This document shows, in pieces, positions 13,312 to 61,810 of a stretch of DNA of 64,000 nucleotides (position 1 is its first letter; each line of letters starts with the position of its first letter). This DNA comes from Panopea generosa. Its lineage: Eukaryota > Mollusca > Bivalvia > Adapedonta > Hiatellidae. The position numbers and the translations under genes were made by a program. Under the pieces are notes generated by a model. The model worked only from the letters and a program-made list of their open reading frames with translations, was not told the DNA's origin and did no database searches. The stretch lies in the NCBI GenBank assembly GCA_029582155.1, contig CM055905.1, positions 9,749,495 through 9,813,494 of the forward strand, given 5' to 3'.

Positions 13312-13493
13312 TCATTCGCTCCCTCTGACTAAATCCGGCAAGGATTTTAATGACAGCTGCGGAATCTGCTTTAATGTTAGCTGTATTTGGAAGTCGCGTT
13401 CGAGTGCCTGTCTGACTTCTACTGTCATCAGTGAATCTATACCGAACTCGGCCAGACTGGTATCGTGACTGACACTTTTTGGATCGCTAATTC
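13312..13493 (-). CDS. PKS exon 25: acyl carrier protein and stop codon
   Basis: Residues 2136-2195 and TGA. Contains [17 protein letters not shown], where S2156 carries the phosphopantetheine arm, then [19 protein letters not shown] and a short tail LVRGSE. The frame ends 39 residues after the serine. In vertebrate FAS a thioesterase of about 280 residues follows; I see no exon resembling one to the left of the stop. Confidence 0.95.

Positions 13494-61810: not shown

Follow-up and report, generated by a model that had tools for sequence, protein, structure and literature searches.

A probable thioesterase-less paralogue of animal type I fatty acid synthase on chromosome 12 of the bivalve Panopea generosa

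Here, we report a gene of Panopea generosa that is probably a thioesterase (TE)-less paralogue of animal type I fatty acid synthase (FAS), encoding a reducing synthase whose product would leave via a partner. The gene lies within a 64,000-nucleotide stretch of DNA (C12:9749495-9813494; hereafter, the window) of a 1.474-Gb assembly in 39 contigs, of which C1 to C19 are 42 to 101 Mb each and C20 is 8.6 Mb, a size break suggestive of 19 chromosomes.

The synthase gene occupies positions 61810..13312 of the window on the minus strand, with 25 exons, 2,195 codons plus a stop, and no internal stops. Exons were found by comparing the minus strand of the window with two diverged paralogues (protein conservation), followed by a phase-consistent splice-site search. 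From that search alone, the 25 exons came to 2,217 codons; 2,195 codons were obtained after two junctions were reset, the exon 6 donor and the exon 14 acceptor being fixed from paralogue conservation. This rebuild returned the exon and codon numbers of the original prediction, with consistent splicing and phase. All 24 introns are GT-AG, in a search that allowed GT or GC donors and AG acceptors only, so the evidence for the model is phase consistency and conservation and not the GT-AG count. An in-frame TAA stands immediately 5′ of the ATG, AATAAA signals lie ~260 to 520 bases past the stop codon, and splice donors are weak at exons 23 and 24, with the same weak donors in a neighbouring copy (N, described below).

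By Pfam, the protein contains, in order, KS, AT, pseudo-methyltransferase (pseudo-MT), pseudo-KR, ER, KR, and ACP; the N-terminal half of DH scored 25.1 bits, just under the cut-off of 27. With DH at this sub-cut-off score, the Pfam and PDB alignments match the KS-AT-DH-psiMT-psiKR-ER-KR-ACP order of animal type I FAS. The exons given below are all on the minus strand. Exons 4, 9, 10, 12, 18, 21, and 23 were supported by the phase search and a motif, exons 6 and 14 by paralogue conservation (donor and acceptor, respectively) and motifs, and the remainder up to exon 24 by the phase search and paralogues, joined by the upstream in-frame TAA for exon 1, conservation for exons 2, 3, and 5, and Pfam for exons 7, 8, and 15. 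The KS N-terminus is in exon 1 (61669..61810; start codon at 61810), and KS continues through exons 2 (57023..57175), 3 (54586..54759), 4 (53215..53415; Cys166 in STACSSS), 5 (52148..52270), and 6 (51147..51377; His298 and His336) to exon 7 (44092..44528), which holds the KS end and KS-AT linker. AT spans exons 8 (43162..43392), 9 (42535..42724; Ser585 in GHSIG, and YWRG), and 10 (39750..39979; His687 in AFHSY) and ends in exon 11 (37818..38122). DH is encoded by exons 12 (36020..36399; N-terminal half, with His882, and Arg886 for the Gly of HxxxGxxxxP), 13 (33037..33282), and 14 (30055..30222; C-terminal half, with Asp1031). Exon 15 (27518..28745; 1228 bp) carries both pseudo-MT and pseudo-KR and is followed by exon 16 (26644..26780); PMC10764717 reports that the mollusc genes for FAS and for AFPKs (animal FAS-like polyketide synthases) have a large pseudo-MT exon. 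ER lies in exons 17 (24544..24839), 19 (22628..22750), and 20 (21397..21620; ER end), with the motif-bearing exon 18 (23305..23662) among them, and KR in exons 21 (20591..20809; GGLGGFG), 22 (19352..19468), and 23 (17676..17922; Lys1993, Ser2020, and Tyr2033). Exon 24 (15907..16152) covers KR-ACP, and exon 25 (13312..13493) holds ACP Ser2156 and a stop codon after ...DLVRGSE, with no TE.

We take the residues named above to be the catalytic ones, from the roles generally given to them. The ER motif SGSGGVGQ is intact, and the motif reading agrees with the earlier statement that active-site residues of KS, AT, DH, ER, KR, and ACP are all visible apart from a single DH motif change (HxxxR for HxxxG). 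Arg886 is shared with N but not with two further paralogues, C12b and C2a. The KS nucleophile motif is STACSSS, not DTACSSS, in all three chromosome-12 genes.

Three paralogues were modelled by searching with the exons of the window gene; in each of the three, 25 exons correspond to those of the window gene and match them in phase. Neighbour N (C12:9692501-9738114, plus strand) is inverted tail to tail with the window gene and 94.4% identical to it, C12b (C12:22674669-22737374) is 81.1% identical, and C2a (C2, ~52.684-52.707 Mb, minus strand) is 64.0% identical. In these models, exons 20 and 23 of C12b end differently (a donor like that of the window gene is present at its exon 23), and C2a overruns the end of the ACP exon, its last residues being intron. 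TE exons, located separately, follow C2a at C2:52681652-52683298, and C2a was therefore taken as the bona fide FAS. By domain, C2a and the window gene are 76.0% identical in KS, 74.3% in ER, and 56.1% in DH, and the ACP is 48% identical to that of FAS. Of 88 candidates in the own-genome protein search, 34 were scored, and further copies may therefore be present. Exon 20 of C12b (C12:22728308 on) has a poor acceptor, and the 5′ part of the exon is replaced; since a poor acceptor is all that is present there, C12b may be altered or decaying.

The possibility that N is an assembly duplicate or haplotig was rejected on its dS of 0.09 from the window gene and its inverted position on one scaffold. 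Introns and flanks of the two genes are ~81 to 95% identical over long aligned non-repeat segments, and the divergence between the genes exceeds that expected for alleles. Between the two inverted genes lies a 419-bp satellite (two 209-bp half units) that fills ~13.4 kb (C12:9744151-9757555; window positions 1..8061) and is perhaps linked to the inverted duplication. Introns of the window gene also hold minisatellites of 62 bp (34 copies; window 33341-35458) and 31 bp (28 copies; 29156-30017), which align with stretches of N.

The stop codon of the window gene lies just past the ACP, where the C-terminal TE of animal type I FAS was not encountered. Exon-wise genome searches with two queries, the Pfam TE model and the TE exons of this genome, detected no TE within or beside the window gene, nor at N or C12b, and the TE-exon query gave no match better than E 0.08 against the stretches of these three genes. 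The TE exons of the chromosome-2 FAS, which served as a positive control, were recovered. For C12b, ~2.6 kb past the stop codon was read directly, and the region beyond was covered by exon-wise searches, which can miss diverged exons. Genome-wide, the Pfam TE model matched at C2a and one place on C7 only; the C2a TE exons as query matched C2a itself and, weakly, C2:28954562 (E 7e-4); matches on C3, C7, and C15 were at chance level, and C12 gave none. A hidden TE at the chromosome-12 genes was rejected on these exon-wise searches, whose control worked. A complete reducing synthase without TE, as originally predicted, is thus borne out by the rebuilt gene, its stop after the ACP, and the absence of TE from the locus; a TE exon joining the ACP, which had been named as the observation that would speak against it, did not appear at the locus in the genomic searches. 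In ORF lists read by eye, no neighbouring gene able to release a product was evident; repeats were seen there, along with ORFs resembling retroelement pieces. Because the TE searches gave C2a, the one place on C7, the weak match at C2:28954562, and chance-level matches, we name no separate thioesterase partner.

Between the window gene and N, dN was 0.0275 and dS was 0.092 (omega, 0.30; bootstrap, 0.22 to 0.39), and omega was likewise 0.30 (0.26 to 0.35) between the window gene and C12b. Since the split of the window gene and N, omega was ~0.25 on the window branch and ~0.21 on the N branch. When single changes were polarised by C12b, the window branch carried 34 nonsynonymous and 49 synonymous changes (binomial p, 2.9e-10) and the N branch 28 and 48 (binomial p, 1.5e-11), against a neutral expectation of 2.8:1 and with 85 further differing codons unassignable and left uncounted. 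The window gene and N have each been under purifying selection since their split. By domain, omega was 0.19 to 0.24 in KS and AT, 0.24 in ER, 0.27 to 0.34 in KR, and 0.26 to 0.42 in pseudo-KR, with looser values in DH (0.26 to 0.43), ACP (0.41 to 0.59), and pseudo-MT (0.54 to 0.62). This pattern agrees with a working enzyme whose pseudo-domain is under weaker constraint, although the ACP is looser than expected; the Gly-to-Arg change in DH, taken with the higher omega of DH and ACP, could indicate partial loss of function. Decay in full, that is, a pseudogene that is still open by chance, is very improbable: HxxxR in DH, the weak donors of exons 23 and 24, and an omega of ~0.30 among chromosome-12 copies versus 0.09 between C2a and the window gene (silent sites saturated; dS, ~2.7) can be read that way, but omega has been ~0.2 to 0.25 on the window and N branches since the split, all 25 of 25 exons are open in both genes, and the weak donors recur in N. 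The saturated dS to C2a also implies that the TE-less lineage is old.

Protein comparisons placed the window gene with FAS. The KS-AT half scored 1016 to 1058 bits against six FAS chains in the PDB, compared with 838 for EcPKS1 and 797 for EcPKS2, and the ER-KR half scored 754 to 758 bits against five FAS chains and 699 against the sixth, compared with 494 and 455. The gap was small for the DH region (247 and 231 bits for the long FAS chains, 206 for EcPKS2, and 189 for EcPKS1). KS identity fell from 76% (the genome's own TE-bearing FAS) through 60% (PDB 8vf7 and 2vz8, the human and pig enzymes) to 47.5% (EcPKS2).

For phylogenetics, 19 KS rows were assembled and 14 were used (near copies L002, L004, L005, and L007 were omitted, and L008 was too short), with a 13-row tree also built without the partial C2b row. 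The three chromosome-12 copies joined C2a in the 13-row tree (91/91); with C2b included, the mollusc group received 93/93, and C2b fell inside it, weakly placed. In the PKS-rooted KS tree, EcPKS2 stands beside the whole mollusc FAS group (89/85) and not outside all FAS, and a clade of all FAS without EcPKS2 is not rejected (p 0.16). On KS alone, forcing the copies with EcPKS2 costs 5.3 log units and is not rejected (p-AU 0.187), so the KS placement beside FAS is not beyond doubt. On KS+DH+ER (7 rows, 1,079 columns), the three copies and the TE-bearing FAS form a clade (99/97), and grouping of the chromosome-12 copies with EcPKS2 is rejected by the AU test (p=0.012). AFPK sampling in the trees is EcPKS2 only (mo-clade 1, long branch), EcPKS1 and mo-clades 2 and 3 being absent, and the placement was thus made against few references. 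The exon phases shared with C2a, compared among this genome's genes only, agree with the FAS placement. KS falls outside the PKS clade in KS trees whose PKS rows are from this genome only, and the window gene is not a canonical animal PKS by that measure.

The original prediction had filed the gene as an animal FAS-like PKS; this is not supported by the PDB bit scores or by the KS and KS+DH+ER trees, which favour the genome's own FAS, and AFPK membership was set aside on those grounds. The KS tree that it had proposed as a check puts the KS beside bona fide FAS on the best trees, the placement it had named as contrary to its reading, and leaves its side with a KS-only EcPKS2 grouping that is not rejected (p=0.187). 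AFPK mo-clades 1 to 3 lack TE by the definition in PMC10764717, as does the window gene; their KS groups with other AFPKs outside the FAS clade, and for the window gene the three-domain test rejects a grouping with EcPKS2, which KS alone does not. Mo-clade 1 has an ER lacking NADPH-binding residues, whereas SGSGGVGQ is present here, and mo-clade 4, in which only KS-AT-TE is recognisable (PMC10764717), differs in that the other domains are recognisable and TE is absent here. A true AFPK akin to sacoglossan EcPKS1 and EcPKS2 would belong to an old branch beside FAS and make polyketides by TE-free release, possibly with pyrone formation. We consider this improbable for the window gene, for which TE was not found and the domain layout is the same as that described for EcPKS1/2 in PMC7280274, since KS is far closer to the own FAS than to EcPKS2, the three-domain AU test rejects the grouping, and the ER motif is intact, in contrast to the ER of the EcPKS enzymes, which that paper reports to be inactive and in which EcPKS2 reads AGASVVGQ. 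Mo-clades 1 to 3 are, moreover, reported from Heterobranchia only.

The probable origin from FAS leads to the following proposed course, which is read from sequence. A FAS gene would have been copied long ago, and loss of the TE exons would have preceded the multiplication of that copy on chromosome 12; we infer this order because all three chromosome-12 copies end just after the ACP. At least the window gene and N would then have been retained as protein-coding genes. In the predicted enzyme, AT would load acetyl- or malonyl-type units, KS would condense them, and KR, DH, and ER would reduce the chain on ACP. As the KS, AT, KR, and ER motifs are intact, reduced chains are expected; HxxxR possibly weakens DH and may slow dehydration. 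With no TE of its own, the enzyme could not hydrolyse the chain in cis, and exit would be via a partner, be it a thioesterase or acyltransferase apart from the synthase, a FAS subunit lending its TE within a mixed dimer, or an acceptor to which the chain is handed directly. Catalysis, release in trans, and a specialised lipid product are thus predictions for the window enzyme.

The same TE-less FAS origin with another product is assumed if the gene is an ordinary FAS isoform that makes palmitate-like acids, with TE in trans or in mixed dimers with full-length FAS, and no specialised product. In classical work, FAS stripped of its TE reportedly held long acyl chains, which counts for such an isoform, as do the conserved KS, AT, ER, KR, and ACP motifs and the constraint on KS, AT, and ER. 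We nonetheless think it rather unlikely, because three genes without TE, a DH motif altered in two of them, and an ACP only 48% identical to FAS suggest a different job, and no separate thioesterase partner was found in exon-wise searches, which can miss one. The TE-less paralogue with a partner-released product is our preferred, probable reading, and the window gene, 64% identical to its FAS and lacking TE, is a candidate for an enzyme that became specialised inside the FAS clade. As a broader proposal, held tentatively and with slightly more doubt than confidence, bivalves may have TE-less, fully reducing lipid or polyketide synthases that came from within the FAS clade, separately from the AFPK branch; TE loss would be the founding step, multiplication on one chromosome would have come later, and the chain would pass to a partner to give a specialised lipid.

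Other loci of the genome were noted in passing. On C11 (48.71-49.08 Mb), five first-type and five second-type KS matches are spaced ~78 to 93 kb apart (two of the second type are weak and partial), and the open frames differ between copies. The one unit read (L054/L055, C11:48710657-48728223) has two intronless long ORFs (3,223 and 2,636 amino acids) with KS, condensation, AMP-binding, methyltransferase, carrier, and AT domains (3,114 of 3,223 amino acids of the larger ORF were scanned), and the C11 loci appear to be PKS-NRPS hybrids arrayed in tandem on an animal scaffold. On C2 (28.95-29.12 Mb; L029, C2:29106000-29115999) lies a divergent FAS-like gene (identity of 32% in pseudo-MT, 46% in a DH exon, and 47 to 73% in KS exons) in which the KS active-site Cys is apparently lost (GSDASSS); it may retain a TE, to judge from the weak match at C2:28954562, and could be a second mollusc FAS type or mo-clade 4. 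KS domains spread over ~4 short exons occur at C10:14.50-14.81, C12:15.7, 28.1, and 60.2-60.5, C1:82.55, C3:95.15, C4:66.54, and C6:79.2 Mb; the two sampled (L030 and L031) both fall outside the FAS/EcPKS2 group in KS trees, and the loci seem to constitute a large PKS-like repertoire. An i-type lysozyme exon has PDB 2dqa and 3ab6, presumably clam proteins, as its nearest solved structures; together with the 19 large scaffolds, it accords with a heterodont bivalve and with the probable bivalve of the original prediction.

A constrained TE-less FAS paralogue present in several copies beside a TE-bearing FAS makes the possibility of specialised FAS directly testable, and TE-less copies next to a full FAS in one genome are a natural experiment on the role of the FAS thioesterase. 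That specialised enzymes might arise from within the FAS clade is named as an open possibility by Lin et al. 2024; among top-ranked results of the open-licence literature, we found no published report of a TE-less bivalve FAS.

Among known systems, animal type I FAS shares with the window gene the active-site motifs and, through to the ACP, the order of domains, pseudo-MT and pseudo-KR among them; the window gene differs in having no TE, HxxxR in DH, and STACSSS in place of the DTACSSS of FAS, and in being one of three chromosome-12 genes. The genome's own FAS (C2:52.68-52.71 Mb) shares 25 corresponding exons and a KS at 76% identity. The mollusc PKS-type genes L030 (C10) and L031 (C1) share the KS fold but are separate in KS trees and have KS split over different exons. 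Arthropod AFPKs mostly retain a TE-bearing layout, according to PMC10764717. EcPKS1 and EcPKS2 (AFPK mo-clade 1; PDB 9cq1 and 9cti) resemble the window gene as mollusc enzymes with the FAS layout minus TE, and EcPKS1 shows by precedent that a FAS-like mollusc enzyme without TE can yield free products (both from PMC7280274). They differ in AT (GHSMGE in EcPKS1 and GHSLGE in EcPKS2 versus GHSIGE here) and in ER, whose motif is intact here, and the closest relative found for the window gene is the TE-bearing FAS. Some mussels have two FAS types less than 50% identical, one of which might be a specialised enzyme of FAS-clade origin (PMC10764717, Limitations section). The second mussel FAS is thus similar to the window gene as an extra bivalve enzyme of the FAS clade suspected of being specialised, and it differs, as compared by description in that section, in its identity of less than 50%, against 64% identity to the FAS of the same genome and no TE here.
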